Below are positions 9,276 through 30,359 of a stretch of 64,000 nt of DNA, in pieces (position 1 is the stretch's first letter; each line of letters begins with the position of its first letter). A program made the translations under genes and the position numbers. Under the pieces are notes generated by a model. That model saw only the letters and a list, made by a program, of their open reading frames with translations. It was not told the origin of the DNA and searched no databases. The DNA comes from Thermoplasmata archaeon (lineage in GTDB: Archaea; Thermoplasmatota; Thermoplasmata; Methanomassiliicoccales; Methanomethylophilaceae), in contig SUSW01000018.1 of assembly GCA_015063235.1 (NCBI GenBank), forward strand, positions 1-64,000. Direction: 5' to 3'.

Positions 9276-9767
9276 TCATTCTCCGGACTTCCAGAGCTTG
9301 TCCCCAACATAATGGATCGTTTTGATAGCCTTTCCGCCGGCCTTTTGCTTGAGCTCGGTACCCGAGCGCAGTGCTTTGCCTATCGCAAGCGGAGCGCCGT
9401 TCTTGATATCCTTGATCCAGACCAAATCGCCTTCCGCCACGGATTCGTCCGCATCGGTTATGCCCGGACCCATAACGTCCGCTCCGTTGGTCACGAAAGG
9501 GACCGCGCCCATATCGACAGTCACGGATTTGGCAGAAGGCCTGTACTTCAGAATCCCTCTGATGGTAAGGAAGGGTTTGTCCTCATAGACGATTCCCAGG
9601 ATATCTTGGCCGACGAAGATCACTTTGAAATCCGTGCTCTCCGCCATATCGACGGCATCCTTCTCATCGAAGACCGGTACTCCGAAAAGCTCCTGGAGTT
9701 CCTTGGAGAGATTCTTGATCTCCTTCTCTCTCATCCTCTTCCTCTTACGGATCATAATGTCTGACAT
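9276..9767 (-). CDS. PUA-domain RNA-binding protein (archaeal MCT-1-like)
   Basis: C-terminal PUA pattern VTVDMGAVPFVTNGADVMGPGITDADESVAEGDLVWI. Confidence 0.75.
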   Translation of the reverse strand: MSDIMIRKRKRMREKEIKNLSKELQELFGVPVFDEKDAVDMAESTDFKVIFVGQDILGIVYEDKPFLTIRGILKYRPSAKSVTVDMGAVPFVTNGADVMGPGITDADESVAEGDLVWIKDIKNGAPLAIGKALRSGTELKQKAGGKAIKTIHYVGDKLWKSGE

Positions 9768-10105
9768 CAGTGGGTGTATGGGGAGTCCAGATAAAGATAT
9801 CTTCGCTGAAAGTGAGATAAAATCCGATGGCGGAGGAAGGATAGGATAGGATGGATGGATGTTTTCCGTCCGCCATCTGGAGGATTTGTGCTTTTGGGGA
9901 TGCACGTTTTTCCTCTGATACTTACATCGATTGGAGAGTATTTAAACTTCAGAGGGGGAGGTGAGTGAAAGTCCAGTTATATTTTTGAATGTCTGGCTAG
10001 CAAAATTTCGGAGTGAAAGTCCAGAGTGAAAGGGCAACGAGTCCGCTCAATCCCGTACCGTCCGCGGGACCGTTCCTGCTTATATAATTACACGATATCG
10101 GCCTG

Positions 10106-10906
10106 ATGATGACATCTGAACTCATCTTCGTTGGACTGGGCCTCAGCGGCACAGATGGAATGACAGTCAAGGCATTGAACGCCCTCAGGGAGTGCGACAG
10201 GATATATGCCGAATTCTACACCTCATTCCTCATCGGAACGAAGGTTGAGGAACTGGAGGAGGCCATCGGTAAGAAGATCAAGGTACTCTACAGGGCACAG
10301 GTCGAGGAATGCGATGACATCATAAGGGACGCCATGGAGATGAGGGTCGCCTTCATCACTGCCGGAGATCCCATGTCCGCCACCACCCACGTCGATCTGA
10401 GGATCCAGGCGGCGGAAGCGGGGATACCTGTCAAGCTCTATAACGGTATCACCATATTCTCCGCGTGCCCGACGGCATTCGGTCTACAGAACTACAAGTT
10501 CGGAAGAGCAGTCACGCTGCCGTTCATCGAGAACGGATATCATCCCAAATCCCCCTATGACCACATCATGCAGAACAAGAAGATGGGTCTCCATACAATG
10601 ATCCTTCTGGACATCCATGCCGACGAGATGCGCTACATGACCGCCCATGAGGCCATAGAATGGCTGATGATCGGCGAGGAGAAATGGGGAGAGGGACTGA
10701 TAGACGATAAGACCATCCTATGCGTCGCATCACAGGTCGGCTCACCAACAGAGAAGATCTTCGCCGGATATCCTCAGGACCTCCTTAAGATGGATCTCGG
10801 AGAACCGCTGTTCACACTTGTCCTTCCCGGCAATCTCCACTTCATGGAGCAGTATTCACTTGTGAAATTCGCAGGTGCACCTGAAGAGATCATCGAGGAT
10901 GAATGA
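10106..10906 (+). CDS. dphB: Diphthine synthase
   Basis: LIFVGLGLSGTDGMTVKALNALRECDRIYAEFYTS and AGDPMSATTHVDLR motifs. Confidence 0.93.
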   Translation: MMTSELIFVGLGLSGTDGMTVKALNALRECDRIYAEFYTSFLIGTKVEELEEAIGKKIKVLYRAQVEECDDIIRDAMEMRVAFITAGDPMSATTHVDLRIQAAEAGIPVKLYNGITIFSACPTAFGLQNYKFGRAVTLPFIENGYHPKSPYDHIMQNKKMGLHTMILLDIHADEMRYMTAHEAIEWLMIGEEKWGEGLIDDKTILCVASQVGSPTEKIFAGYPQDLLKMDLGEPLFTLVLPGNLHFMEQYSLVKFAGAPEEIIEDE

Positions 10907-10991: not shown

Positions 10992-11591
10992 TCACAGATT
11001 TCTGCGGTCGAACTCTATCTGCACCATGGTGACGCAATGGTCAGCATGATAACTGCGAGGTCCGACAGATACATTTATGTAACTAAATGCCTGAAGCATA
11101 TTTTCTTCCGATTCAGTGATATCGGTATTGTCGCCGAGGATGAAGCAGGGGTGTTCCGGAAATTCGAAATCGGGAAGGTTTACGCCGCTTTCCCTGAGAT
11201 GAATGAACGACACCCCCTCCTCTGACAATTCGCGAAGAACATCGCCGAATGATGCTTTAGACACATACACTCCCGGGCTGCTCATCGTCCAAACTCCCTT
11301 CACTGCTTTCTTCTTCAAAGCTGCCCTTATGATTCCTGCGATGCTTCTTTCATCCGGATTCAATCCCTTAAGTTCGGATCCGCAGACCCTAATCACCTTC
11401 GGAGCATCCTTTCCGCCCTGAAGGATCAGAAACACCCGGGTCTCTTTCCTTATCCCATTGCTCAGACAGAAAGCGGTAGCAAGACATCTTGCTAATGTGT
11501 CTATCCCCCCTCCTGAACCTGGAAGGTCGTTGAATTCAAAATCGATGGTGGTTTTTGCACGGTGACCTATGGTGATGAATGTTCTTTGCAT
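10992..11591 (-). CDS. trmY: tRNA (pseudouridine54-N1)-methyltransferase TrmY
   Basis: MQRTFITIGHRAKTTIDFEFNDLPGSGGGIDTLARCLATAFCLSNGIRKET; FILGDNTDITESEE. Confidence 0.85.
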   Translation of the reverse strand: MQRTFITIGHRAKTTIDFEFNDLPGSGGGIDTLARCLATAFCLSNGIRKETRVFLILQGGKDAPKVIRVCGSELKGLNPDERSIAGIIRAALKKKAVKGVWTMSSPGVYVSKASFGDVLRELSEEGVSFIHLRESGVNLPDFEFPEHPCFILGDNTDITESEENMLQAFSYINVSVGPRSYHADHCVTMVQIEFDRRNL

Positions 11592-11658
11592 GGATGCACC
11601 CATATTCTTTATGACTGAAGTCAGGCTGAACATCTGGTCAATTGTATCAGCTATAACA

Positions 11659-11935
11659 TGGTGGCAGGGAGGCAGAGCCCCCCTGCCTTGAAGCAGGTTT
11701 CACAGTGGAGTGACCCACTTCTGGTGACTGGTGGGCAGGGTATGATCCCTGTCCCCCAGTCTGTGCCGTCGCGGGTTTGACCCCTGCACCATGACGGTGA
11801 GACATGACGTCTGGCGGCACGACACGCGGACGCGCGTTCGTACCTTTCGGCTCGATACTGCGCTCTCCGGGAATGGACCCCCAGCGCGTGCCCCTAACAA
11901 GCCGTATGACCGGCTCCATTACTGTGGAGTAATAG
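11659..11935. ncRNA. Candidate structured non-coding RNA (multi-hairpin element, family not recognised, strand unresolved)
   Basis: GC-rich block in AT-rich intergenic DNA with many compact perfect hairpins, e.g. AGTGG-AGTGAC-CCACT (11704-11719), 15-bp stem with loop TATGAT (11726-11761), AGCCG-TATGAC-CGGCT (11900-11915), ATTACT-GTGG-AGTAAT (11918-11933). No coding signal on either strand. Confidence 0.6.
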
Positions 11936-12105
11936 ATGTGTTAGCCTGATTGCAACTTCATTATTGCTATAAAGTAATTTTGAAGTGTTTATTTGAACAG
12001 TTAAAAAAATGAACACTTTTTAACCACAATAGACAACCTCGTTTCCACAGCTCTCGGGCAGATTTGTTCTCCCCATCATTCAACAATTCTTGGGCTAAAT
12101 TGTTT

Positions 12106-12141: not shown

Positions 12142-15100
12142 TCAGGATGCCTGCTTTCCGCGGTACCACATCATTCCGATAAATACGGCGGCACATGCGA
12201 GGATCGCAATTCCGATTGCAATGACGATGTTCATGACATTGAGTCCGCTGGACGGATGCACAACATCACGGACGTAGATCTCGTAACCGCAGTCACAATG
12301 GTCGTAAACCTTATCGTCGTGCTCCACCTCGGTGAAGGAGTGCATCGGGAACGAAAGGTTGGCCGTGGATCCGTCAGGAAGGGTCAGGGACACCTTTCCA
12401 TCGGCATCGTAATACAGGTTCGGGCTGACCGGTCCAGTCGCCAGAATCTCCTTCTCTCCTTTAATCGTCAGACCCATGGTTCCGGCGGGAACGGAGACGT
12501 TATGCTTGGCATCGTCGACCACGACCACATAGACGGTGTCGTGGTATCTGGTATGTTCGATTTCGGCCTCGAGGCTATACAGGTTGTACTTCAGACCGGT
12601 GAACAGGTAATGTCCGCCTGATATCACTCCGGATACCGTCTGATCGCCTGACGAAAGGGTCAGCTTCATGCCGTCGGGTCCTTCGAAGGACACCTCACCG
12701 GAATCGGTCAGGTGGAAGTCCAGCACATATGATCCGAAGTAGAGATCGTTACCGATCATGTATGTGTAATACCTCTCCTTTCCGGAATCGCCAGGCATCA
12801 CGACGTTCACATTGGTTCCACCGAGATTCTTGACGATGAGACCGGGAACATGTTCGGTTACGTCGATGTTAGTGATTCCGTGGGACTCGCCGAATGCCTT
12901 CGAAAAGGATATCGGGTCCTCTCCGAAGTCTATAACTGCCTCTCCTGTGAGTCTTACGTTACCTTCAACATAGATCCTGGTGAAATCCGCATCCACATTG
13001 ATGATCATCGTCTGTCCCTGGGCCATTATGAGGGTAGCCGCCTTATCATCGATGACGAATTTGGACGTCTTACCCTCCGAATCGACCATCTGATGCACTG
13101 TATCGAACTTGTAACTGGCCTCCCATGTCATGCTATAGTCGATTATGTAACTGGTCACATCAGCTGCTCCGGGGACCTGCGTAGTGTAATACAGCATGTA
13201 CACGGTTCCACCGGTACCGGCGGCCTTTATCGCATCATCGACACTGGAGTATCCTGTGAAGGACTCAGGACCGGTCTTGACATATGCTATCATGTCCGCA
13301 CTGGCCTCCAACTTGGCGGATAATCCTCCGGGCTGTATGTTGGCTTTGATTCCTGCCTTCAGCACACCCACTCTGTCGTTCAGAGATACTTTCTCAGAAG
13401 TAATGAACTCGTATTCGCATCCATCCCTGAGATCGTAGACCGTACCGGCCGATGTCGTCACAGGGACGATCCAATCATCGATCTTTTCGAATCCTACCGA
13501 GAGTCTGTACATCGGTACATTGCCCATGAGCTTTATCTTTGCCACATCAGCACTGGTACCCATTCCTCCGCCGAGTATAACGTCAGCTTCGACAATAACA
13601 TCGTATAACGACAATGTGTATCCGCCGTTCACCTCTATGACTCCGTCAAGTACGGCCTGCATATTCTCCACTGCAGGAAGATCAAGTTTCTTTCCGTTAT
13701 CGTCCATGTATTTACCATCGACATAGTATGTAGAGAAGTTACCGTCCGTCACACGTACGACAGTCTTAAGGCTGAGGTTCTGAGAAAGAACCACTGAATC
13801 GGTGTACTTCGTGGATGATTGTCCTCCGGAATACTGGGGCTGATAGCTGAGTATGTAAACCGTATCTGTACCGGCCAGATTAGCAACGGCATCTTCCATC
13901 GTTGTATAGAACTTGAAGGAATCGTTGCTGAAAATACCGAACGGCGCGTCAATAGTCCTGATCAGACCTACTTCCTTCTCACCGATATCGAGTGCGGCAT
14001 ATCCCGATGAATTAACCGCAACATAATCGGCAGTCAATCCAGTGATGAATGCTCCCGCTCCGATCCACATTGCCGGCTTGGAGAAGACGACATTGACGTC
14101 GAACATCGCATCCAGAGTTATGTGCCCGTTGTCCCCGATGAATACTGTGAGAGGTTCAGGTTTGATTCCGTAGATTGCCACATCCGCATCGATAGTCAGA
14201 GGGCTGTCCTCGGTCAGGAACACGTTACCGTTCATCCTGATCTCAACTTCCTTGTTGATAACGGTACCTTTCGGATCGACATTGACCTTGATGATGGAAC
14301 CATCGATGGCCGCGTCCAATCCCTTCTGGAAGCTGTTATACTCCGTCCAGGTCTGTCCGCCGTCATTAGAGACTTCGCATTCGGCCATACTGCCGGCCAC
14401 CCTGGTCGCTATCGTAGGCAGGAACCCGATTCTCTTAGCTTCAAGGTTAGTGGATCCGAGCATGAACCAGGTCCTGTGATCTCCTGCCGTTCCGTCAAAT
14501 CCGGTCAGAACGACTCCCTTGGGATAGATGGTGTATTTCTTCGTCACATCCCAATCTGCAGGAACGGTGAACGTGAGGGTCTGGTATTCGGACTTGGTGA
14601 TGAAGAAGTAATATCCGTACTGAGGCTGCTTGGCAGTCGCAACCCTCTCGCCCGCCTCATCATCGTACCATATTGTGGCACCGCTGTTGTAAAGTCCGGC
14701 GAGCTTCCCTTTGTTGTTGAGTATTCCTCCGTAGTCCCCGTGTGTTGTCTTGAAGACGACGACATTCTCATCCCCGGGTTTGAGGACTGCATCCGAGCTG
14801 TCCACTCCATTGATCAGGATCTTAACCGGCATGCTCAGGAGGATCTGATACTTCGTCTGACCGTTGTTCTCCATCTTCACTATGTTGCGTCCCTCTGTGA
14901 GCCTGACGGTCCAGGAATCACCGTTCTTTGTGGCGGTACCCTGTTTGAATCCGTCGATTCCATTCTTTCCCAGTACAGGGTTGTAGATGGTAACGGTAGT
15001 TCCGGCTGCAGGGGTGAAGGTGAAGTCGTATCCACTCTCATTGTGATCATAATAGAAACAATCCATATCACAGTCGATAGGCCTGTCCTTTCCTTCTTTT

Positions 15101-17358
15101 CCGATGCCAGGATCGAACATGGTCATACCGGTATCGAAGGTCGCCTCTTTTCCGACGGTGACGACGAATACCTGAGTGAGCTCAGGCCATGTGGCACCGT
15201 AGAACTGATCCTTATTGACATGGAGAGTCATCGCTTTCATCCATACTGTGACGACGACGGTTCCTTCCTTAAGTCCGTTAAGTTTCCAAGTCGTCTCACC
15301 CTCTCCACCGGGTACGATGGAGATGACGTCAGAGACGGCCTTTCCGTCAAGATCGGTGATCTTGTAGACGATCTCCGGCTCCAGGAAACGGTTGCTCATA
15401 GTATCGGCGACTGCCTGCCACTGACGGTAGACCATCATCGGGGATTGCTGTCCGACGTTGAGGTATACGTGGTTGGAAAGAGTACCTGAGACGAGTATTC
15501 CGCCAACATCGTCACCCTCGGTCTTCACAACGGACCTGTCCACATAGAGCGAATCCTTTCCTGCGGGATGGAGCTGCTCGTTGGTGACCGTCGTTCTGAT
15601 TTCCGTGTTGGATTTCTTTTGGAAGAGATCCTTGTAGGTGACACAGCCGTCGCCGGTTACGATTGCTCCGTACCAGCTGTCGGGCAGGATGTACACATAA
15701 GTGATTGTACCATCCTTGTTATCTACGGTCTTGACCGGATCCACCGGCGTGAACATGTAGTAATTGTATGATGATGGCTTCGCATTCTCAGGATTTACGT
15801 TAGGAGCCCTGGTCATCTCGAACGAGACGCTGGCCGGAACCGTATAGTAGCAGTTTTCGATCATATCGAAGTTGGCCGTGACTGTGGTGTCCCCGGTGAC
15901 TGTTACCGAATACTCTCTGTCCGTCTTGGACTTATCATCGTTCCAGTATGCGAACTTGAATCCGCTTGCATCGACTGCTTTGAACGTAGCGGTCTCGCCT
16001 CTCTCCACCTTCTGAGTGAATTCCACCGATCCGCCTTTATCAGGATTGACCAATGCTGTCATTATACGGGTGTTGTCGTACTCGAAATTATCGGATGCGC
16101 CATCTGTCGCCGAACAGGTGAATCTCTCGCCTGCCCTTTCTGCAGCAGCCACAGCCGCCCCGTCCTTGGTGAAGTTTCCGCCGACCGTATTCTTGGTCTG
16201 AGCTGTGAAATCGATATACTTAGCCTCAGTGAATTTTGATTTGCTGGCCTTGACACCGTTTAGATCTACTGCATAGGTAGAGTCTATGACAAGATGCGCT
16301 GGGTTGATGTTACAGATTTCCCAACTGCCATCTTCCTTGGTGAAATAGGTCTGGATGATTCCCTTATTGCCCTCTGGCAGCGCCGCTTTCTGCGTGATTA
16401 TCAGATTCGCCAGTTTGCTGCACATGGTCAGAGAGTATCCGCCCAGCACAACGGAGTTATCGATGGTAAGCGTCACAAGCTTATACCCGTTGTAGAAAGC
16501 ATCCTCAGCGAGCCTTGTCACACTTGCCGGAATGACAAAAGAATCCTGCGGGTTGTTCAATGGATAGAACAGCAGGCTCGTTCCGTCCTTGCTCAGTATA
16601 CATCCTGATTCGGATTTGTAAACCGTGTTGCCAGAATCGACAGTGTATTCGTCAACCTTTGCAGATGTAAAAGAATCCTCTTCAATCGAAGTGACAGTTG
16701 CAGGAAGAGTTATTTTGAGCTCACTGCCGCTGCCGATGTTCTGGAACGCCTTGGATCCGATAGTCTGTACCGAAGTTGCACCCAAGTTAACAGATGTGAT
16801 CTTGGAGCAACCCTGGAATGCAGCCTCACCTATGGCGGTGATGCCACTGTTCAGAGTGACTACTTTAAGCATCGTACAGCTGTTAAATGCATTCTTGGGT
16901 ATCTCGGTTATAGAGGTCTTGGAAAGGTCCAGGCCGGTGATCGTTGCTTTATAGAATGCACTCTCTCCGATGCTCTTGACAGAGGCTGGCAGCACTACAT
17001 CCTGGTAGATGTTGCTGGTATCGAATGCATTCGCACCGATGGTCTCCAAACTATCAGGGAATGTCACTGAATTCAGCATACCTGTTCCCTTGAAAGCCTC
17101 ATCAGCGATACCTGTCACCTTGTAGGTCTTGCCGGCATTAGTGACGCTGGCAGGGATCTCCAGTAACTGGGCTGAATATTTTCCAGACTCCAGAGGGGCC
17201 ACAGAAACGGTGGTATCCCCTGTGATCTCGAAACGCATACCGTCGACTGTGAAATGCTTGTCATCGTCGGCATACGCTTCGTCCTGGATGGCAACGGTCG
17301 CCGCTATCATAAGAACGGCGGCCAATGCCATCATCGACAAAATCATTTTCCTATTCAT
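12142..17358 (-). CDS. Giant surface protein (1738 aa): BspA-like LRR_5 N-terminus, InlB-B-like repeat, long beta-rich body, C-terminal TM anchor
   Basis: Signal peptide MNRKMILSMMALAAVLMIAATVAIQDEAYA; repeats IGANAFDTSNIYQDVVLPASVKSIGESAFYKATI; C-terminal VMNIVIAIGIAILACAAVFIGMMWYRGKQAS. Confidence 0.75.
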   Translation of the reverse strand: MNRKMILSMMALAAVLMIAATVAIQDEAYADDDKHFTVDGMRFEITGDTTVSVAPLESGKYSAQLLEIPASVTNAGKTYKVTGIADEAFKGTGMLNSVTFPDSLETIGANAFDTSNIYQDVVLPASVKSIGESAFYKATITGLDLSKTSITEIPKNAFNSCTMLKVVTLNSGITAIGEAAFQGCSKITSVNLGATSVQTIGSKAFQNIGSGSELKITLPATVTSIEEDSFTSAKVDEYTVDSGNTVYKSESGCILSKDGTSLLFYPLNNPQDSFVIPASVTRLAEDAFYNGYKLVTLTIDNSVVLGGYSLTMCSKLANLIITQKAALPEGNKGIIQTYFTKEDGSWEICNINPAHLVIDSTYAVDLNGVKASKSKFTEAKYIDFTAQTKNTVGGNFTKDGAAVAAAERAGERFTCSATDGASDNFEYDNTRIMTALVNPDKGGSVEFTQKVERGETATFKAVDASGFKFAYWNDDKSKTDREYSVTVTGDTTVTANFDMIENCYYTVPASVSFEMTRAPNVNPENAKPSSYNYYMFTPVDPVKTVDNKDGTITYVYILPDSWYGAIVTGDGCVTYKDLFQKKSNTEIRTTVTNEQLHPAGKDSLYVDRSVVKTEGDDVGGILVSGTLSNHVYLNVGQQSPMMVYRQWQAVADTMSNRFLEPEIVYKITDLDGKAVSDVISIVPGGEGETTWKLNGLKEGTVVVTVWMKAMTLHVNKDQFYGATWPELTQVFVVTVGKEATFDTGMTMFDPGIGKEGKDRPIDCDMDCFYYDHNESGYDFTFTPAAGTTVTIYNPVLGKNGIDGFKQGTATKNGDSWTVRLTEGRNIVKMENNGQTKYQILLSMPVKILINGVDSSDAVLKPGDENVVVFKTTHGDYGGILNNKGKLAGLYNSGATIWYDDEAGERVATAKQPQYGYYFFITKSEYQTLTFTVPADWDVTKKYTIYPKGVVLTGFDGTAGDHRTWFMLGSTNLEAKRIGFLPTIATRVAGSMAECEVSNDGGQTWTEYNSFQKGLDAAIDGSIIKVNVDPKGTVINKEVEIRMNGNVFLTEDSPLTIDADVAIYGIKPEPLTVFIGDNGHITLDAMFDVNVVFSKPAMWIGAGAFITGLTADYVAVNSSGYAALDIGEKEVGLIRTIDAPFGIFSNDSFKFYTTMEDAVANLAGTDTVYILSYQPQYSGGQSSTKYTDSVVLSQNLSLKTVVRVTDGNFSTYYVDGKYMDDNGKKLDLPAVENMQAVLDGVIEVNGGYTLSLYDVIVEADVILGGGMGTSADVAKIKLMGNVPMYRLSVGFEKIDDWIVPVTTSAGTVYDLRDGCEYEFITSEKVSLNDRVGVLKAGIKANIQPGGLSAKLEASADMIAYVKTGPESFTGYSSVDDAIKAAGTGGTVYMLYYTTQVPGAADVTSYIIDYSMTWEASYKFDTVHQMVDSEGKTSKFVIDDKAATLIMAQGQTMIINVDADFTRIYVEGNVRLTGEAVIDFGEDPISFSKAFGESHGITNIDVTEHVPGLIVKNLGGTNVNVVMPGDSGKERYYTYMIGNDLYFGSYVLDFHLTDSGEVSFEGPDGMKLTLSSGDQTVSGVISGGHYLFTGLKYNLYSLEAEIEHTRYHDTVYVVVVDDAKHNVSVPAGTMGLTIKGEKEILATGPVSPNLYYDADGKVSLTLPDGSTANLSFPMHSFTEVEHDDKVYDHCDCGYEIYVRDVVHPSSGLNVMNIVIAIGIAILACAAVFIGMMWYRGKQAS

Positions 17359-17360
17359 GT

Positions 17361-19646
17361 TTAATCCTCTTTATTCCTTGACGACAGGTATCTCCAAGCG
17401 ATGATTGCCGCTACTGCAATGACTGCTGCCACGACGATCCACATCCATGGGAATTCGCTGCTACCTCCATCATTCGAGCCCCAGACTGCTGTCGCTGTCA
17501 CTGGCCCATGGACCTCATATTCCGTTCCCACGGCATACTTCGTCCCATCGATCGTCCATGAGACGATCTTCTTACCATCCTTGACCTCCGGCGATTCGGG
17601 AAGCGTAAGCTTCCACCCGTCGTTGGAGTACAGGGGCCCGATCGGGATGGCTCCCCCGTTTGTATCGAAAGTTATCATTATGTTTCCAAAGCTGACTATG
17701 TACGAGATATCCTCGGTGACAGTCACGGTCCTGGACAATTCAGTATACCCGTCGCTCCATCCTATGAGATGATAGTCGCCTGACGGCGTCACAGACAAGT
17801 TGGCCTCAGACCCTACGATGAACTTTCCTGCTCCTTTGTAGGTGCCTGAACCGGCTGGATCGATGGTTATCGATATGACCTTGGTCTCAGCTTTGGCGAA
17901 TGTTGCCGTGAATTGCTGATCCCCGGTCACCGTCAACATCCTGGTGGCCTTAGATTCCCCATCGCTCCATCCTGTGAACTTGCAGTAAGGCTTGGGTTCT
18001 GCGAAGAAGGTCATGGACGTTCCGAGCGCGAATGTCCCTCCGCGCGGGGAGACGGTGCCAAGCGACGTATCGCTGGAAAGGACCGTGATAGTACCGACAT
18101 CTGTTGTGGACCAGACTCCGCCGCTCAAGCTGTAGGTCTTTCCTGCCCTGTCTGCTCCAGTTAAGGTTGTAGAGCCGTCCTTCAGAGTACCTCCTTTGGT
18201 GTTGACGGCTTGATCTGTCAGTCTCATGAATCCGGAAACAGATCCCTTGACATCTACCGATATAGAATCATCAGTATCGATAATGAGGAGCGACACTTTG
18301 GTTCCCTGAGCCATACCTGGCAGGACCCATCCGCCATCGGACATGTACTTCTTTATGATACCGGATCCGGACCCGGAGGTTATACCCACAGTTATCAGAG
18401 ACGTGGTGGAGAAGCAATTGTCGCCCAAGGTCGTACCGTCAGGCAGATTGATCTGCGAGAAGTTGGTGCATCCGTTGAAAGCATTGCGTCCTATCGACTT
18501 AACCGAATCAGGAATGTCTATGGAGACCAGCGAACGATCGCCCTGGAAGCATTCGTTACCGATTGATGTTAGGGTATCAGGCAGATTGACGGTCTTGAGC
18601 GAAAGGCAGTTGTCGAAGGAACTGTCGCCCAATTCGGTCACACCCTTGCCCAGAGTGATCGTTTCCATTCCTGCACATACCCTGAATGCACCGTCCCCGT
18701 AATGGGTGACGGAATCCGGGACGGTCACAGTCTTCAGACTGTAGTTCATACGGAAGGCTTCGAATCCGAGATACTCCAATCCGTCAGGGAGAGAGATGCT
18801 CTGAAGCTTTCCTCTGCTCCAGTTTTCGGTATCTATCGGCATCCTGAACGCTTCATCGTAGATGATCTTCAGCGTGGACGGGAGCGAAACCGATTGGAGG
18901 AACTCGCAGTACTTGAAAGCCGCTACTCCAATCTGCATTATACCTTCCTGGATAGTAACCTTGACTATCTTGTCCTGCTCACTCTTCTCATCGTAGAAGA
19001 ATGCCGAATCACCGATGTATTTCACATCCACATCCTTCCCGGCCACACTGAGCTTGGAAGGGATGGTGATATCGGTTCCTTTGAGATGCCTCAGAACGGT
19101 GACCGAGCCATCTAATTCACAGTACTCGAAAGAACATCCGCTGCCCTCATACTTGTATACAGGCAGGACCTCCTTGGTCAGAGTCTTGAATGAAGACCAG
19201 GATGATGAATGCCTTTCTAGGTATTTCACCACAGTTCCGGAAGGAGTACCTGCGAACGTATCTTCGGAGAATTCCGGCATCGCACCAAGGAATATGATCT
19301 CTTTGAGCGAGGAACATCCCTTGAACATCTCGGATCCCATTATCTGTACCTCGGCTGGTATGACGAATGTCGTCACATCGGCTGATCCGGAGAGGACCCT
19401 GTCATCCATCTTGTAGACAGGGTATCCCTCCAGACGGCTCTGCACCCTAAGGAAAGAGTCCGTTCCGGCATCGAACGAGGTCATCTCGCACTGATATGTC
19501 GGAACGGAGAAGCGGAGGTACTTGTATGTGGTACCGTCGTAGGCCACGGAGGTCCCCTCATTCTCTGCACCATCCGATTCGGAAGGCAGGACGGTAAGGA
19601 CCATCAACGCGGCCACGAGGAATGCTGGTATCCACAGTCTTCTCAT
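17361..19646 (-). CDS. BspA-like LRR_5 surface protein with InlB-B-like repeats and C-terminal TM anchor (761 aa)
   Basis: LRR_5 repeats (IGDSAFFYDEK.., LPDTLTSIGNECFQGDRSLVSIDIPDSVKSIGRNAFNGCTNF), FTGWSDGESKATRMLTVTGDQQFTATF, TM near C-terminus. Confidence 0.75.
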   Translation of the reverse strand: MRRLWIPAFLVAALMVLTVLPSESDGAENEGTSVAYDGTTYKYLRFSVPTYQCEMTSFDAGTDSFLRVQSRLEGYPVYKMDDRVLSGSADVTTFVIPAEVQIMGSEMFKGCSSLKEIIFLGAMPEFSEDTFAGTPSGTVVKYLERHSSSWSSFKTLTKEVLPVYKYEGSGCSFEYCELDGSVTVLRHLKGTDITIPSKLSVAGKDVDVKYIGDSAFFYDEKSEQDKIVKVTIQEGIMQIGVAAFKYCEFLQSVSLPSTLKIIYDEAFRMPIDTENWSRGKLQSISLPDGLEYLGFEAFRMNYSLKTVTVPDSVTHYGDGAFRVCAGMETITLGKGVTELGDSSFDNCLSLKTVNLPDTLTSIGNECFQGDRSLVSIDIPDSVKSIGRNAFNGCTNFSQINLPDGTTLGDNCFSTTSLITVGITSGSGSGIIKKYMSDGGWVLPGMAQGTKVSLLIIDTDDSISVDVKGSVSGFMRLTDQAVNTKGGTLKDGSTTLTGADRAGKTYSLSGGVWSTTDVGTITVLSSDTSLGTVSPRGGTFALGTSMTFFAEPKPYCKFTGWSDGESKATRMLTVTGDQQFTATFAKAETKVISITIDPAGSGTYKGAGKFIVGSEANLSVTPSGDYHLIGWSDGYTELSRTVTVTEDISYIVSFGNIMITFDTNGGAIPIGPLYSNDGWKLTLPESPEVKDGKKIVSWTIDGTKYAVGTEYEVHGPVTATAVWGSNDGGSSEFPWMWIVVAAVIAVAAIIAWRYLSSRNKED

Positions 19647-19655
19647 CTCGATACC

Positions 19656-21791
19656 TCAGTATGCCCAATCACAATCCGTAGCGCCTTCCAGCGGCCATGG
19701 CGGGGTTATGTATCCTTCATCCCATGCACCGTAAGACAGTCCGGCGTAATCAGTAGTGTCGACAAGGTCCGGGATGAACCAATGTGCTCCGGTATCTGAG
19801 TAGTAGCTCCCAGTCGCGTTATCCCAAATGGCCTGCAGGAAATTTCCTCCGGCACACTTGTTTACTGAACGGATGAAACCACTTTCTTCGAGATCATGAT
19901 CGTATCCGATACGGTCCAGAGCGTTAATGAATGCCGTCATGACGGTAGAGCCGTTATCTGCATATCCCCTCACCCAGAGTCCCTGGACGATTAAGTGCTG
20001 ATAATCACTGGCATCTTCCCTCGAACTAGTGAAGTGGGTGTATGTGAACACATTGTTCAGGTAGAACTTCACTTCCTTACCAGAACCGGGTGCGATGGTG
20101 TCGCCGTAATACCACTGGATGTTGTTGGGAGTAGCAACCCCTACCGATGGTGCATCCCCTGTTGTAGCGTCGTTCGCTCCGTGAATGACTGCAACATAGC
20201 TGTAGGTCGAGATGCTGAGATCGTTCAGAGTGAAGTATGCGCCAGACCCGGTCTTGCAGGCCCAGGCGCTGCCTGTCCATCCCCAAAGATACAGGTTACC
20301 GTCCTGTGCACCGTTCATCTCGGTGATCTTTCCACCAGAGACAGTAACGGAAATGCCAAACGTCTTACATGCGTCCTTAAGAGCCTCTTCCATGCTCTTA
20401 CCCGATCCCTTAACCCATATTCCGGGGATGATCGGTTCTGCATAACTCGCATACATATCTGTGCTCTGGAATCCATCGTTCTCAAAATTGTCCATGAAGA
20501 AGAACGATACTGTTCCTCCCGTTCCTCCGCTGAAGGATGCGGTTATGGTCACGTCACCAGTGACGGTTCCGCTTTCCGGACTCCATCCTCCGAATGAGTA
20601 ATCAGGATCGGGAGTAGCAGAGACTGAATCCCCATTGCTGAATGACAATGATGTTCCGGAAGAGCTCCATGTAACTCCGGATTCAGCGGTCACTGCTTTC
20701 TTGCTAACAGTTCCTCCCTCCCCTGCATAGATGGTGACTGTGTAGGTAGAGGTCTGCTTAGTGAACTTTACATTAACTGTCATGTCTGAATTAACAACTC
20801 CAGAGCTCGGATCCCATGAGCCGAATGCATATCCGGAGGATGGTTCTGCTGTCACCGACTTACCGTCGCTGAAAGACATCTTGTTCTGATTAGTGCTGAT
20901 TGTTGCCCCCTTGGTGACTGTTATCTGCGAGGGAACAGTTCCCTGTCCCTCTGCAACTACGAACTTGACCGTGCATTCCTCGGGTTTGACCTGTTCGAAT
21001 GTAGCATTCAGAGTCGTATCCTTGGTGACGGTTCCGCTGGACTGAGACCAGCTGCTGAACTTGTATCCGGAATTGGGGTTTGCGATCACAGACTGACCGT
21101 CGCTGAAAGACAGGACACCCGAACCAGTAGATTTCTGGGTCCAAGTGGTCCCTGACGCCACTTTAATCGATGACGTACTGACGGTTCCGCCTGCACCCGC
21201 GGTGAACTTGACGGTGCATTCTACGGTCTTAGCGTTGAATTTGACATTGATGTTCATGTCAGTCTTGACTGTGCCTGAGCTCGGACTCCAAGAATCGAAT
21301 GTGAATCCCTCGGACGGGACGGCTTTGACCTTCGTCCCGTCACTGAATGCAAGCTCGTTCTGGTTGGCGCTGAATGTCGTATTCATCGGGACTGTAATCT
21401 GTGCAGGGACGGTTCCCTGGCCTCCGGTGATCACGAACTTTACCGTACGAAGTTCGACTTCCTTCTTGACGAACGTGGCCGTCAGATCCGTTTTCTTAGA
21501 GACTGTTCCGGTCGATTCTGACCATTTACTGAACTTGTAACCGTCATTAGGGTGTGCCACCACGGATTGGCCGTCGCTGAATTTCAGAATATCCGAATCC
21601 GACGTCCATGTGGTTCCTGGCGCAACCTTTATCGAGCTGTGGTTGACCGTTCCGTTCTCGGCTGTGAATGTCACAGTGTACTCTGAGGGTCCGCTCTCTC
21701 CTGAAGAGGTGCTCTCGAGGATCATGTACGAGCCCAGACCGGCAACCAGTCCTACCGCCAATGCTATAGCGTATATCGCTGCTGCTTTCAT
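19656..21791 (-). CDS. N-terminally anchored repeat protein: alternating InlB-B-like repeats followed by DUF4430-like C-terminal domains (711 aa)
   Basis: Alternating SSIKVAxGTTW...KFSxWSxSxGTVxKxTxLxATF and PxQITVxxxxTxSxNQNxxxFSDG...FxSWxPSSGxVxxDMxxNVKF units; C-terminal SMEEALKDACKTFGISVTVSGGKI...LYLWGWTGSAW. Confidence 0.65.
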   Translation of the reverse strand: MKAAAIYAIALAVGLVAGLGSYMILESTSSGESGPSEYTVTFTAENGTVNHSSIKVAPGTTWTSDSDILKFSDGQSVVAHPNDGYKFSKWSESTGTVSKKTDLTATFVKKEVELRTVKFVITGGQGTVPAQITVPMNTTFSANQNELAFSDGTKVKAVPSEGFTFDSWSPSSGTVKTDMNINVKFNAKTVECTVKFTAGAGGTVSTSSIKVASGTTWTQKSTGSGVLSFSDGQSVIANPNSGYKFSSWSQSSGTVTKDTTLNATFEQVKPEECTVKFVVAEGQGTVPSQITVTKGATISTNQNKMSFSDGKSVTAEPSSGYAFGSWDPSSGVVNSDMTVNVKFTKQTSTYTVTIYAGEGGTVSKKAVTAESGVTWSSSGTSLSFSNGDSVSATPDPDYSFGGWSPESGTVTGDVTITASFSGGTGGTVSFFFMDNFENDGFQSTDMYASYAEPIIPGIWVKGSGKSMEEALKDACKTFGISVTVSGGKITEMNGAQDGNLYLWGWTGSAWACKTGSGAYFTLNDLSISTYSYVAVIHGANDATTGDAPSVGVATPNNIQWYYGDTIAPGSGKEVKFYLNNVFTYTHFTSSREDASDYQHLIVQGLWVRGYADNGSTVMTAFINALDRIGYDHDLEESGFIRSVNKCAGGNFLQAIWDNATGSYYSDTGAHWFIPDLVDTTDYAGLSYGAWDEGYITPPWPLEGATDCDWAY

Positions 21792-21822: not shown

Positions 21823-22671
21823 TCACCTGTTCGAACCGAAATGCACCTCGTCGGGATTGGTGTCCCAACGTGCCCTCTTCGGCAATACGTAGATCTCCCC
21901 ATCCACATCCAGACCGACACGGGAGTCCACCTCGTAGACGTCGCGTATCAGCTGCTCTGTGACCACCTCTTTTGGGTCACCGATGGTTACGATCTGACCT
22001 TTCTTCATTATCACGCAAAGATCGCAGTACCTCGCCATCAGCGAGATATCGTGCTCTGCAACCAGTACTGTCATGTCGCTGCGCGCCATATTCTGTAGAT
22101 ACTCCATGACGTCCAGCTTATACTTCATATCCAAGTGGGATGTCGGCTCATCCACCAGCATTAGGATGGGCTGCTGAACGTATGCCTTGGCGATCAGCGC
22201 CCTCTGCCTCTCTCCCGAGGACAGCGTTGAAACCTTCTTACGACGTAGATGGTCGATACCGAAGGTACGCATGGCTTCGCGCACCACTCTCTCGTCCTCC
22301 TCCGTCTCCCACCAGATCTTATCCACGAAAGGATACCTTCCCAGCATGACCATGTCCATGACCGTCATACCGAAGGTCTGACCTGCCTCTGCAGGAACGG
22401 ATGCCACAAGTTTGGATACCTCTGCAGGCTTCATTTCCGAGATATCGTTGCCTCCGACGTATATCTTACCAGAGGTCATCTGATGTACCTTACAGATGCA
22501 CTTCATCATGGTGGACTTACCGCAACCGTTCGGACCGATGAGTCCTACCAGCTTCCCTTTGGGAAGGGAGTAGGTCACGTTGCGGACGGCCTTGTGGTCG
22601 TTGAATTCCATGCACAGATTCTCGATGCGGAGAACCGTGTCATCGCCGGATACGAAACGTTCATCCGTCAT
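21823..22671 (-). CDS. ABC importer ATP-binding protein, BtuD/FecE type
   Basis: LIGPNGCGKSTMMKCICKV, TLSSGERQRALIAKAYVQQPILMLVDEPTSHLD. Confidence 0.9.
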   Translation of the reverse strand: MTDERFVSGDDTVLRIENLCMEFNDHKAVRNVTYSLPKGKLVGLIGPNGCGKSTMMKCICKVHQMTSGKIYVGGNDISEMKPAEVSKLVASVPAEAGQTFGMTVMDMVMLGRYPFVDKIWWETEEDERVVREAMRTFGIDHLRRKKVSTLSSGERQRALIAKAYVQQPILMLVDEPTSHLDMKYKLDVMEYLQNMARSDMTVLVAEHDISLMARYCDLCVIMKKGQIVTIGDPKEVVTEQLIRDVYEVDSRVGLDVDGEIYVLPKRARWDTNPDEVHFGSNR

Positions 22672-24085
22672 ATTCGCGCCCCCTCTTGACGAGCATGTAT
22701 GCGAAGATCGGAGTTCCGATCATTGCGGTGATGGCCCCGACAGGAAGCTCCAGAGGTGAAAGGACTGTCCTGGCGATCAGGTCGGAGAACAGCATCAGAC
22801 AGGCTCCGAGAACGATCGATGCCGGCATTATGAGCCTGTGGTCGGTACCAAGGGCCATCCTGCATGCGTGAGGTATAATCAATCCGACAAATCCGATGAT
22901 ACCGCAGAATGCTACGCATATAGCGGTGAGGACGGAAGCGATGATCATCATGGTCCTCTTGAACCTCTTCACGTTCATACCGAGCTGCTTGGCCTGGTCC
23001 TCACCCATCATGAACAGGTTGAACTCCCTTGCCCATATCATCGCCAGCAGCGATATGCCCAAGGCAGGGAACATGACCAACCATGCATTCTCCCAGGTGA
23101 TGTTGGCGAAAGAACCGTACAGCCACCACATGGCGTTGGACAGGTTATCCTTGGCCATGGAAAGGAAGACCGTCTGGACAGACGAAAGTGCGAATCCCAC
23201 TATAACTCCTGCAAGGATGTAATTCGATGCGGAACCTCCGGAACCCTCCGCCACACCCATTGTGATGGCGAATGCGATGAGTCCTCCGACGATTGCAGCT
23301 ACGGGGATGATGTAAAGTGTATTTGCACCGATGAAAGGTATGGATACTCCGAGCGCGACGACCGCGACTGCGAAACAACCGGCTCCCGAAGATACTCCTG
23401 TGATGTAAGGATCGACCAGAGGGTTCCTGATGATCGCCTGATACATACATCCGGCGATGGCCAATCCTGCACCGACTCCGATCGCTGCGATAGCACGCGG
23501 CAGACGCGACTGATAGATGTATAGCTCCACGGTATCCAGGTTCTGCCCGCCCTTACCGATGGCAGAGAACATGGCGGCAATCGCATCGCTGACCGGAACG
23601 ATACCTCCTGCAGATATTGATATTGATATAAGGAAAGCCACAATAGACATCACTATTCCGAATGCGACTATCAGTCTGAACCTGCGCTTCTTTATCGTAA
23701 GCTCGCTGACACCGTCATCCAGATCCTCATCGCGCCTGTTCGCGGGCTTGATGAAGGCGAATATCGACTTCTTCTTGGGCTTCGGCTCCTCCTCCGGCTC
23801 TTCCTCCACAGGTTCCGACGGGGGCACATAGTATGCGGCCGGCTTTTCGCCCTGGACCTGCGGTTCGGGCTGGACCTGCTGTTCAGCCCCTGCCGGCGCC
23901 TGGACTCCGAACGCGGGCGAAGGTGCCTCTTCTCTCTCGTACTGTACAGGTGCTTCCTGCACGGGCTCCTGTTTGACCTCCATTTCGGGGGCTTCCTCAG
24001 GCTTGCTCTTCGGAGGCTCAAAGTCCTCCTTCATAGAGCGGTATCCCTTGCGCACCAACTTCCAAAATCCTTCCTTCTCGGACAT
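22661..24085 (-). CDS. ABC importer permease, BtuC/FecCD type, with acidic/proline-rich cytoplasmic N-terminal extension
   Basis: YQSRLPRAIAAIGVGAGLAIAGCMYQAIIRNPLVDPYITGVSSGAGCFAVAV; CGIIGFVGLIIPHACRMALGTDHR; N-terminal ~120 aa PEEAPEMEVKQEPVQEAPVQYEREEAPSP. Confidence 0.9.
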   Translation of the reverse strand: MSEKEGFWKLVRKGYRSMKEDFEPPKSKPEEAPEMEVKQEPVQEAPVQYEREEAPSPAFGVQAPAGAEQQVQPEPQVQGEKPAAYYVPPSEPVEEEPEEEPKPKKKSIFAFIKPANRRDEDLDDGVSELTIKKRRFRLIVAFGIVMSIVAFLISISISAGGIVPVSDAIAAMFSAIGKGGQNLDTVELYIYQSRLPRAIAAIGVGAGLAIAGCMYQAIIRNPLVDPYITGVSSGAGCFAVAVVALGVSIPFIGANTLYIIPVAAIVGGLIAFAITMGVAEGSGGSASNYILAGVIVGFALSSVQTVFLSMAKDNLSNAMWWLYGSFANITWENAWLVMFPALGISLLAMIWAREFNLFMMGEDQAKQLGMNVKRFKRTMMIIASVLTAICVAFCGIIGFVGLIIPHACRMALGTDHRLIMPASIVLGACLMLFSDLIARTVLSPLELPVGAITAMIGTPIFAYMLVKRGREYDG

Positions 24086-24093
24086 GGTATACC

Positions 24094-25998
24094 TCAATAA
24101 TACCTCACTAGGACGATGACTGCGGCGACTGCCAGGGCAATCAGCAAGGCCCATGACCAATGCCAGAATCCGCCCGGAAGGATTATCTCCCCTCCTCCGT
24201 CCCATTTCTTTCCTTCTATCTCGGAAATACAATAAACCGCCCCGTAGTCGTTAGCGGTGTAAATCTTACCTTCTATGACCGTCGGTGCGGCCATGGAATA
24301 CGACACTTTTGAATAAGGTTCAAGCTTGGCGGACCATACCGTCGATCCGTCAGCGACTCTCTTGGCGACGACGTGACCTCCGTCATCGTAGAAACCGGCC
24401 GAATACTCGGAATAATAGAGAAGGCCAGCAGCTACGGTCATCCTCGACCAGATGTAGTTGGAGGTTACATACCATTTGGTGTTTCCGTCCTTATCCAAAC
24501 GATAGAGCCCATCCTCTTTGATCGCTGGATCCGTATCGATGGAAGGCGAGGATGCTTTCTTTGCATAGATGATGAAATCTCCGCCGTCTACCATGACGGT
24601 TCCCTGGGTGACCCCATCTGTTCTCCAATAACAGTCGCTTCCTCCGGAACCGCCTCCGGTCTTGGCGTCAATGCAAACGATGTGCCCCATTGTCGGAGAC
24701 ATCGCACCGTCTGTGCATGTCACGACCAGCCTGTTTCCGCCGATGTATGTTATCAGATCCACCGCACCGGGGGTTTTGGGCACACCCTTGTTCTTCTCGT
24801 AGAGTGCAATGCACTGCTTCTCCCAGATCGATTCCCCTGTCGAAGCGTCCAATGCTATGACGTATCCTTCGTAATTTCCTATGAATAACATCCTGACGCC
24901 GTCGATATCTGCTATGGTCGGACTGAAATAGTAGAAACTGCCGCGAGTACCGATGTATTTGCCGTCCACCACATCGGATGGAGGAACATACTCCCATAGG
25001 AGTTCCAATCCGTCGTGTGAAACGGAGTATGAAAGGACACGTCCATCTGATGTTCCGAAATAGAGCGCCCCGGAATCATAAACCGGCGATGTCCCTCCGT
25101 TGACGAATGTCCTGCCCGTCCATACAGGCATACCCCTGTCGTTTAACGGCGGAGCATGGAGTATCTCCTCGGTATCGATCATCTCCCCAGTGAAACGGTT
25201 GAGAAGGTACAGGTCCATGACCGTCTTCCCGTCCTTGCTGTGCGATGTTGCCGAGTTTATGACGATCATATCCCCAATGATGACAGGCGAGGTGATGTTG
25301 TAACCGTTATCCTTGACTTCGGGATACTTCCCTCCGCCTGTGGTCAGATCGAAGATCCAGACCATATCGGCAGTCAGCCTGTTCAGACAGTATAGCTGCG
25401 CATGCGATCTGGAACCTGAAGCGGTGCTCTCTCCGTATGTGGTGTGATACAGCAGATCGCCGGCGACGATGAGTGAAGAATCCACATAACCTGTCCTGTA
25501 CGTCTTGTACCACTCGACTGGTGTGACCGCCTTCTCTGTTCCGTAGGAGTCAGAAACCCCGGAATTTGAGGAATCTCCTCTGAATTGTGTCCATGCTGAG
25601 CGGAACTCCGGAGTCTCGACAGGTATCGTGCCCTCCGGATAGAATCCCCAGGCGATACTGCCTGAGCTGCGGGATGTGTCGGTTGAAGGGGTCCACTCCG
25701 AACCGGACCATTTGTAGAGCTGCCATCCGCAGCTCTGTGTCCCGACGGAATGCTCCGCCATCTCCCCGATACGGGCGATATGGCTTCCGTCCTTCTGGAA
25801 TTCAAGACCATGAGATTTAGCGAACTGCTCCGCCATCTCTACGGCATCTGAGCCGGTAGCGGCGGTCCAATAGGTCACACCGTTTCCCATGTCAATCAGC
25901 ATTCCATCGCCCTCGGCGGCATCCGTCTGGGCCGACAGGACGGCCGCGGACACGAATACGGCCAGTACCACTGCGATCGCGGCATACAATCTCTTCAT
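24094..25998 (-). CDS. Extracytoplasmic DUF4430-like domain + PQQ-like beta-propeller protein with C-terminal TM
   Basis: Signal peptide, DGMLIDMGNGVTYWTAATGSDAVEMAEQFAKSHG...WQLYKWSGSEW; propeller blades AQLYCLNRLTADMVWIFDL, VIALDASTGESIWEK, AVYCISEIEGKKW; C-terminal TM WSWALLIALAVAAVIVLVRYY. Confidence 0.7.
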   Translation of the reverse strand: MKRLYAAIAVVLAVFVSAAVLSAQTDAAEGDGMLIDMGNGVTYWTAATGSDAVEMAEQFAKSHGLEFQKDGSHIARIGEMAEHSVGTQSCGWQLYKWSGSEWTPSTDTSRSSGSIAWGFYPEGTIPVETPEFRSAWTQFRGDSSNSGVSDSYGTEKAVTPVEWYKTYRTGYVDSSLIVAGDLLYHTTYGESTASGSRSHAQLYCLNRLTADMVWIFDLTTGGGKYPEVKDNGYNITSPVIIGDMIVINSATSHSKDGKTVMDLYLLNRFTGEMIDTEEILHAPPLNDRGMPVWTGRTFVNGGTSPVYDSGALYFGTSDGRVLSYSVSHDGLELLWEYVPPSDVVDGKYIGTRGSFYYFSPTIADIDGVRMLFIGNYEGYVIALDASTGESIWEKQCIALYEKNKGVPKTPGAVDLITYIGGNRLVVTCTDGAMSPTMGHIVCIDAKTGGGSGGSDCYWRTDGVTQGTVMVDGGDFIIYAKKASSPSIDTDPAIKEDGLYRLDKDGNTKWYVTSNYIWSRMTVAAGLLYYSEYSAGFYDDGGHVVAKRVADGSTVWSAKLEPYSKVSYSMAAPTVIEGKIYTANDYGAVYCISEIEGKKWDGGGEIILPGGFWHWSWALLIALAVAAVIVLVRYY

Positions 25999-27371
25999 TG
26001 TTCATCCCCCTGATATTTCAGATAATTCCTGTAATCGTCATGGACGTACTTGGGCAGCACATCAGACACATCCAGATCGTGGAAGGCATCAGGATTCAGC
26101 ACCTTCGCGATGAGCTCTGCCGCCTCGGAAAGACGGGGGCCGGGCCTGGAAAGCACATTGTTGGCCTCCCCTGTGAAGAAGTACACCTTGCCATCCTTGA
26201 ATGCCGGAGTCTCCTTCCACACAGAATCCATACCGTCCAGCATCGCCTGGTATTCGGCCTCGTTGGTCACCTTCTCGGCGGTCATTACGATGATGATGCT
26301 GGGCTGTTTGGCATAGATCTGCTCCTTGGAAACCATGAACCAGGACGGGAAGTCATCGAAAACATTGATTCCCCCATCCGTCTGGATGATATCGTTTATG
26401 TAAGTCTGGTTTCCAGCTGTCCAGGGAGACGGGTCGGTGGAAAGTGTGATGAACGTCCTCATGTTCGTCACGCCCGCTATTCCCGCCACATCATCTATGA
26501 TGCGTTTTACCTCCGAGATCTCAGTAGTGGCATGATCCGGCCAACCCAGGGAACAGGATGTTATCCAGATGTTGCTGTACAGCGCGTTTATATCCGTACT
26601 GTCGAAAAGAACACAGCAGGATATCCCCGACTTACGGAGCTTGTCCGCGATCGTCACCTGCTGTCCGACGCTGCCGTCCAAGAATACCAGATCAGGATTG
26701 GCCTGGACGATCAGCTCATAACTGGGATCCATATATCCCCCTGTCTCGGCGATGAGCCCTTTCTGTTTACGGTCGACGATCTCCTTCGGGTAATCGCTGT
26801 AGACGTCCGTTCCTACGATGTTCTCCAATCCTCCGAGCTCACAGATGGTCTCGGTGATCGATGGTGCCAAAGAAACAACCTTCAGCAGGTTTCCGGTCTT
26901 CTTGGATTTCCCTTCAGAGGCATAACCGAAATAGAGATGGCCTGTCGAATCCGTCGGCGTTACGACCTCATCAGCGGAAGTCGCTCTTGCCCAACACAAT
27001 ATGTTCTGGTCGGAGACACTGAATTCCTCAGGCTTCTCCACAACGACCCACCTATTGTTTTCATCCAATTTGTACAGATTCCAAGGCATATCCTTCAGGG
27101 CCATCTTCCCGTCGATTGCCAGAACGGTACCGTCGCTGTTGTATTGGACCTTGTAACCGAGCATCTCACACACCGTGTTGAGTGCATCGTAGCCGTTCAT
27201 ATCGTCCTCGAACGTCATCTCCTTCCATGTGACGTCCCAATAGCCGAAATCTATCAGAATACCGTGGCTGTCGTCGGTTTCGGGTTTAGTCAGTCCCGTG
27301 ACCACTAGCGCAATGGCGACAACAACGATAATGACCGCAGATATCGTCAGTTTCATGTTTATCGAATTCAA
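25995..27371 (-). CDS. ABC importer substrate-binding protein (BtuF-like) with N-terminal DUF4430/transcobalamin-like domain
   Basis: BtuF signature VVSLAPSITETICELGGLENIVGTDVYSDYPKEI; preceding domain GILIDFGYWDVTWKEM...YDALNTVCEMLGYKVQYNSDG...PWNLYKLDENNRWV. ATGA overlap with the next gene. Confidence 0.8.
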   Translation of the reverse strand: MNSINMKLTISAVIIVVVAIALVVTGLTKPETDDSHGILIDFGYWDVTWKEMTFEDDMNGYDALNTVCEMLGYKVQYNSDGTVLAIDGKMALKDMPWNLYKLDENNRWVVVEKPEEFSVSDQNILCWARATSADEVVTPTDSTGHLYFGYASEGKSKKTGNLLKVVSLAPSITETICELGGLENIVGTDVYSDYPKEIVDRKQKGLIAETGGYMDPSYELIVQANPDLVFLDGSVGQQVTIADKLRKSGISCCVLFDSTDINALYSNIWITSCSLGWPDHATTEISEVKRIIDDVAGIAGVTNMRTFITLSTDPSPWTAGNQTYINDIIQTDGGINVFDDFPSWFMVSKEQIYAKQPSIIIVMTAEKVTNEAEYQAMLDGMDSVWKETPAFKDGKVYFFTGEANNVLSRPGPRLSEAAELIAKVLNPDAFHDLDVSDVLPKYVHDDYRNYLKYQGDEQ

Positions 27372-27455
27372 CTTACCACCGAGTAGTTGGATGTATAATC
27401 CAACGAATTGCTGTCCTCCATTATTATACTATTTCTGATTTCGAGAAACGTGAAA

Positions 27456-27467
27456 TGATAATTATCA
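27456..27467. promoter_or_regulatory. Perfect palindrome TGATAATTATCA upstream of the minus-strand importer operon (possible operator)
   Basis: 12-bp perfect palindrome in AT-rich intergenic DNA ~85 bp upstream of the BtuF-like gene start. Confidence 0.35.
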
Positions 27468-27609
27468 CAAAAAATTCAATTGTATGCCATATAATCAAGA
27501 AAAATCGACTTTTTGAATCGGAAGAAGTTAGTTTTGAAAGCGTGGCATATTGCTTAGGATTACTCAAATTATAATGATAAGGAACATGATAGAATTAGAA
27601 AGGAAAGGT

Positions 27610-27627
27610 GATGGCCCGAGGGCCATC
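27610..27627 (-). terminator. Hairpin GATGGCCC-GA-GGGCCATC downstream of the tandem-repeat protein gene
   Basis: Perfect inverted repeat just beyond the stop at 27636, pyrimidine-rich on the minus strand after it. Confidence 0.45.
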
Positions 27628-27635
27628 TTGTAGTT

Positions 27636-28628
27636 TCAAGCTTTGAAAGGACTGCCGGAAGCGGTCTTCCAAAGGGTCGACTCTGTCGGATCCACGATAT
27701 TGTACGACTCGTCGTATGCTGAGAAGAAGAAGACATAGGAGTTGCTCTCATTCATCTTCTTCGCTGAATCGCCGTATCCGTTGAAGGAGATCCATCCGTT
27801 TGATGAGATGAAATTGTCGTATGCTCCGTAGTTGGGATATTTGACACTCTCATCCGCGGTCTGAGAGTTGCAGTCAAACCATTCATAGGTGAAAACACCC
27901 CATGTTCCACTGTCAAAGTTGGGGTATCCGCCCTTACTGTAAGTGAGGGTGATTCCTTTGCCGTCAATTGCCTTAGCGAGGGCATCGTCCGTGTTCTTTG
28001 CAGAAGCTGAATACCATCCAGTCTTCTCGTTGTTGTCCCCGAAATAGATGTAGAAGTAATACTTGTACTCATCAGTGGGGTTGATTCCCTTCGCAAAAGG
28101 ACTGCCGGAAGCGTTCTTCCAAAGTGTGCTGGTGGTAGGGTCCTTGATTGCATAGGTATCAGGATCGTACTTGGCGAAATAGAAGATGTTGCATTCACTC
28201 TGATCCATCTTCTTCGCTGACTCACCGTATCCGATATAGGAAATCCATCCGTTTGATGAGATGAAATTGTCATATGCTCCGTAGTTGGGAAATTTGACAC
28301 TCTCATCCGCGGTCTGGGTACTGCACTGTTTCCATACATATGCAAAGCCACCCCATGTTCCACTGTCAAAGTTGGGATATCCGCCCTTACTGTAAGTGAG
28401 GGTGATTCCTTTGCCCTCAACTGCTTTCGCGAGGGCATCGTCCGTATTCGATCCAGTTGCTGTATACCAGCCTGTCTTTGTATCGTTGTCACCGAAGTCT
28501 ATGTAGAAATAGAAAGGCTCGTCGTTGTTGTTACTGCTGCCATTGTTCATCACAAAGAACACTGCAACAGCTGCAACAGCAACAACAGCCACTACTGCAA
28601 CAGCGATGATGACTTTGTTATCTGCCAT
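27636..28628 (-). CDS. N-terminally membrane-anchored protein of two near-identical DUF4430-like domains
   Basis: TM MADNKVIIAVAVVAVVAVAAVAVFFVM; repeated DALAKAxxGKGITLTYSKGGYPNFDSGTWGxFxYxWxxCxxQTADESVKxPNYGAYDNFISSNGWISxxGYGxSAKKM. Confidence 0.65.
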   Translation of the reverse strand: MADNKVIIAVAVVAVVAVAAVAVFFVMNNGSSNNNDEPFYFYIDFGDNDTKTGWYTATGSNTDDALAKAVEGKGITLTYSKGGYPNFDSGTWGGFAYVWKQCSTQTADESVKFPNYGAYDNFISSNGWISYIGYGESAKKMDQSECNIFYFAKYDPDTYAIKDPTTSTLWKNASGSPFAKGINPTDEYKYYFYIYFGDNNEKTGWYSASAKNTDDALAKAIDGKGITLTYSKGGYPNFDSGTWGVFTYEWFDCNSQTADESVKYPNYGAYDNFISSNGWISFNGYGDSAKKMNESNSYVFFFSAYDESYNIVDPTESTLWKTASGSPFKA

Positions 28629-28941
28629 TTTTCCACCTTATCCAGATGTTTTTCAAACCCAATCTGGGCATCTTTCAGTTCCCGGCATCCGGGAATATAC
28701 AGATCACCATGAGTTGGATGGATAGTAATATTGCTCCTGCTCTATAAATATGGTCATGTTTCTACTACGAAGTGATCTCAACACATCTGGGAATGTGATA
28801 ATAATTGGCATTTCTATGATAAAATAATCGCTTTTAGTGCTAAAGATTGGATAGTCATATTTGACCAATATTTATGTAGTCTAAATATGTACTGGACATA
28901 GTATCCAAGCATTTGGAATTAGCTGATCAGGAGCCAATTTT

Positions 28942-30357: not shown

Positions 30358-30359
30358 TA

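Follow-up and report, generated by a model that had tools for sequence, protein, structure and literature searches.

Why would a small region of an archaeal genome carry many compact hairpins whose stems differ while their loops are alike? Such a region was noticed in a sequence-only reading of the window, the 64,000-nt stretch of DNA analyzed here (genome G000, contig C12), which proposed an RNA presenting the same loop many times, slightly favored its transcription from the minus strand and placed it upstream of trmY. Here we report, on the basis of folding against shuffled sequences and of comparison with a homologue, that the region holds a structured RNA of about 295 nt (11651-11945, minus strand), and we weigh the explanations for its repeated loop.

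Structure and strand of the RNA

Folded alone, the minus strand (11650/11651-11945) reached -144.6 kcal/mol, with a z of -6.3 against dinucleotide shuffles and none of 200 shuffles as stable, versus a z of -3.3 for the plus strand of the same region. All hairpins listed in the sequence-only reading were found in the sequence where it had put them, and its picture of numerous hairpins that resemble each other in their loops but not in their stems is borne out by the fold and by the pairs kept in the homologue described below. The strand it leaned towards is the one on which the RNA sits, and the UGAY loop motif that it gave for the plus strand is merely the reverse complement of the RNA loop. 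Its loosely fitting GGG-AATGGA-CCC reads on the minus strand as GGGG-GUCCAU-UCCC (about 11882-11869), while the second pentaloop hairpin of domain H4 (CACC-GUCAU-GGUG) had been missed.

The RNA contains four UCA hexaloops and three related loops (Table 1), the repeated element being a UCAW tetranucleotide atop a 1-6 mismatch, usually in the form G[GUCAWN]C. With stems of at least 4 bp, four hexaloop hairpins share a trinucleotide (TCA) at loop positions 2-4, a number that none of 3000 dinucleotide shuffles attained when the maximum is taken over all trinucleotides at these positions; the same statistic was 3 (p 0.009) for the homologous copy in genome G003. Transcription would proceed from the TATA-like box upstream, which has a counterpart in G003 (TTTTATATATC) at equivalent spacing. 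A conserved protein encoded by a 90-aa minus-strand ORF was ruled out by indels of 1, 2, 1, 1, and 1 nt relative to the homologue; as these are not multiples of three, the RNA locus is not coding.

Table 1 Features of the RNA locus in the window and of the adjoining gene
Feature	Position in the window	Strand	Basis or remark
TATA-like box TTTATAG	11967-11973	-	about 26 nt upstream of the putative RNA start (about 11945); consensus resemblance only
P1 closing helix, UAACA with UGUUA	11943-11939 with 11658-11654	-	read from sequence; UAACG/UGUUA in the G003 fold
Hairpin H1, loop CCAC, nearly invariant	11917-11934	-	sequence and G003 comparison
Hairpin H2, AGCCG-GUCAUA-CGGCU	11900-11915	-	G003 loop: GUCAAC
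Domain H3, stem carrying one hairpin with a GUCCAU hexaloop and one with a GAAA tetraloop	11821-11892	-	fold
Domain H4, closed by GUGCCG/CGGCAC	11763-11820	-	fold and sequence
H4, possible pentaloop hairpin AGAC-GUCAU-GUCU	11812-11800	-	
H4, second possible GUCAU pentaloop hairpin	11799-11787	-	
H4, hairpin GGG-GUCAAA-CCC	within 11787-11771, loop 11781-11776	-	G003 loop: GUCAUU
Helix H5, long, tip CAGGG-AUCAUA-CCCUG	11726-11761	-	G003 loop: GUCAUU
Hairpin H6, AGUGG-GUCACU-CCACU	11704-11719	-	G003 loop: GUCAAG
Hairpin H7, GGCAGGGGGGC...GCCUCCCUGCC	11663-11687	-	fold and G003 comparison
Divergent TrmY paralogue (PF04013, NF002560)	10992-11591	-	likely start ATG at 11591

Conservation in a second genome

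A search of 100 genomes returned a copy in G003, a member of the same genus, that is 86% identical, lies directly upstream of a TrmY-like gene and folds with a z of -7.4. No third copy was found by covariance model in 148 genomes of the order, nor a further one in scans of genome contigs, and no homologues were found in phages and plasmids. Between G000 and G003, changes fall in 7 of 170 paired and 29 of 116 unpaired columns. All seven changed pairs, which are G-C/G-U or A-U/G-U exchanges, remain able to pair on the minus strand and are disrupted on the plus strand (7/7 versus 0/7), which fixes the strand and shows selection acting on the RNA. The structure came from the same two-copy alignment, so the count of kept pairs is biased in its favor; the contrasts between strands and within loops do not depend on this in the same way. 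No pair is changed on both sides between the two C12 homologues.

Within the four UCA hexaloops, a single one of the 16 GUCA sites is changed, against 7 of the 8 sites formed by the last two loop bases (hypergeometric probability about 2e-4; counts made by hand on loops picked for UCA in G000, so that the G003 column is the test). Taken from two C12 homologues in draft genomes, these comparisons indicate purifying selection on the stems and on GUCA.

Further arrays in the same genome

Searching for two neighboring GGGTCANNCC hairpins gave 13 matches in G000, against 0-2 in each of the other genomes, and beyond the window the matches fall at two loci, on contigs C21 and C17. The C21 array (L082 10455-10745, minus strand) has about eleven GUCAWN hexaloops on about six distinct stems, is built of a 128-nt unit repeated 2.1 times and folds with a z of -4.7 on its strand and -1.1 on the opposite one. 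The C17 array is a 34-nt tandem unit with GGCUGG-GUCAUA-CCAGCU in 3.8 identical copies, giving three or more such loops. UCA is the commonest hexaloop center at every locus, and AGGGGTCAAACCC is common, in exact form, to C12 and C21.

Downstream of the C21 array and on the same strand, ARAGORN called three tRNA-Cys, accompanied by several degenerate cloverleaf-like modules in a stretch that ends at an oligo-T (TTTTTTT). These three near-identical tRNA-Cys(GCA) copies and the tRNA-like modules adjoin the GUCA array at C21:37740-38455 (L082 about 9740-10455, minus strand); the acceptor stems of the copies differ, with most pairing kept. Another tRNA-Cys lies elsewhere, at C12:65834-65904. The C21 locus resembles tRNA-like structures or extra tRNA-Cys genes, by its tRNA-Cys calls and cloverleaf-like modules, whereas the window RNA is without tRNA-like modules.

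A three-hairpin pattern, run on 400 genomes of the class, gave true arrays in G000 and G003 only, with the matches of other genomes to the GUCA array patterns put down to chance, coding sequence or simple repeats on reading the matched sequences, rather than case by case; this census consists of pattern searches that need G-C closed loops at set spacing, and looser arrays may escape it. Nothing matching the C17 and C21 arrays turned up in the 30 remaining genomes of the genus. A genome of the same class, G157, has tandem repeats of 29 nt (GGTCATGCATATGAGCACGATGCATGGCG) on many of its contigs, with 18 pattern matches.

Known families and rejected candidates

In line with the absence of SRP and RNase P signatures noted in the earlier reading, covariance models for Archaea_SRP (RF01857) and RNase P RNA (RF00373) gave no match in the window and located both RNAs elsewhere in the genome, at C8:15990-16298 and C47:41237-41531, respectively. 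At the gathering score, Rfam 15 returned two tRNAs only for the window, with no family match for the RNA, and tRNAs only for the C17, C21, and G003 regions. Several pattern matches were discarded: the IMG/VR matches L036 and L039 lie in apparent phage structural genes, among the array-pattern matches, L118 encodes a collagen-like repeat and L120 and L131 consist of simple repeats, and the short match L003 is, by eye, part of a trpB-like coding sequence. None of the remaining array-pattern matches has a hairpin cluster.

The adjacent TrmY paralogue

A TrmY-family gene does adjoin the RNA, about 60 nt downstream on the same strand, but it is a divergent second paralogue and not the ordinary trmY, which the sequence-only reading had not noticed. 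Of the genomes of the genus that were searched, three (G000, G003, and G012) encode both this divergent protein and, at another site, an ordinary TrmY; the divergent proteins group in a clade of their own with a long branch. The one named TrmY relative found and the gene content suggest that the archaeon belongs to the Methanomassiliicoccales. RNA and paralogue stay together in both G000 and G003 (contig C10 in the latter) while the other neighbors differ, and G012 has the paralogue (G012:C196) without the RNA. In the window, large, seemingly secreted or surface proteins (12142-21791 and others) are encoded within 12142-35218, and genes similar to those of metal-chelate or corrinoid ABC transporters within 21823-35218, both judged from ORFs by eye.

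The T-loop consensus of TrmY is UUCRANY. Neither this nor the Nep1 motif C/UUCAAC is present in the loops of the window RNA, which share UCA alone with these substrates, and one G003 loop reads GUCAAC. Like the substrates of the SPOUT enzymes Nep1 and TrmY (the rRNA h31 loop and the tRNA T-arm), the RNA offers small hairpins with U-C-A in the loop and has a TrmY paralogue adjacent; it differs from them in its hexaloops, GUCANN without a fixed A-C or T-loop pattern, and in its many hairpins arranged serially. Nep1/EMG1 was found in 5 of 32 genomes searched, all five from other families, with no match in the genomes of the genus searched (G000-G019). The 16S rRNA was not found in the G000 assembly.

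Possible functions

The reading that we rank first, with about an even chance of being right, is a lineage-specific class of structured non-coding RNA that offers one UCAW loop many times and serves as a CsrB-type decoy or a multivalent scaffold. The repeated loop would titrate or assemble a binding partner reading UCAW, most likely an RNA-binding protein, for which the TrmY paralogue encoded directly downstream is one lead and a KH-type protein reading UCA another. This is supported by the constraint on stems and GUCA and by the same loop on unlike stems at C21 and C17; against it count the restriction of the class to two genomes, unusual for a core regulatory RNA, and the possibility that tandem-repeat expansion accounts in part for C17 and much of C21. 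Elsewhere in the window the loop hairpin is not enriched (3 versus 2.0 in shuffles), so that mRNAs targeted by a common binder are not apparent there.

Similar to the bacterial decoys CsrB and RsmZ, the window RNA combines many hairpins on unlike stems with one short apical motif and would present many binding sites. It differs from them in being archaeal, in its loops, which are GUCAWN within G[GUCAWN]C and not GGA, in having no identified CsrA partner, and in the tRNA-like modules that accompany the array at one locus (C21). CsrB-type multi-site RNAs are not known to have an archaeal counterpart, and a literature search, which was not exhaustive, returned none. More tentatively, G[GUCAWN]C arrays and tRNA-like modules might together make up an archaeal RNA class that serves, as multivalent scaffold or decoy, a protein that modifies or binds RNA, the TrmY paralogue encoded beside one copy being a candidate.

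Second in our ranking, as the main rival but rather unlikely, is an autoregulatory 5′ leader, in which substrate-like loops would let the TrmY paralogue bind its own leader and repress or process the mRNA that encodes it. The shared strand, the short distance to the likely ATG with no terminator-like site between RNA and gene, and the persistence of the pair in G000 and G003 amid differing neighbors would all fit such a leader. An isolated T-arm hairpin can serve as a substrate of TrmY, and the Ψ methyltransferase Nep1 requires C/UUCAAC (PMC9508554), which the G003 loop GUCAAC recalls; the TrmY target is, however, a 7-nt T-loop with U54-U55-C56 and not a GUCANN hexaloop. Moreover, the G012 paralogue does without the RNA, no TrmY gene was seen among the ORFs beside the C21 and C17 arrays, and a 3′ TGTTATA could be a separate promoter for the paralogue gene.

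Fast-evolving arrays, duplicated from tRNA-like or T-arm sequence, whose loops are alike by common origin and have no selected function, come third and appear unlikely: the tandem units of C21 and C17, the latter identical, and the exact sequence common to C12 and C21 are what such growth would leave, but at C12 the bases next to GUCA vary freely while GUCA itself and the stems are preserved, and stem sequences differ yet keep their pairing. Least probable is kissing of the UCA or GGUCA loops with an RNA containing complementary UGA or UGACC, since the conserved UCA, although accessible at the loop apex, is part of a conserved stretch of just 3-5 nt and no complementary target was identified.

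The occurrence of one loop at three loci in a single genome makes the G[GUCAWN]C hairpin a concrete bait for its partner. The link to the divergent SPOUT methyltransferase, if true, would suggest regulation of, or by, an RNA-modification enzyme via substrate-like loops.
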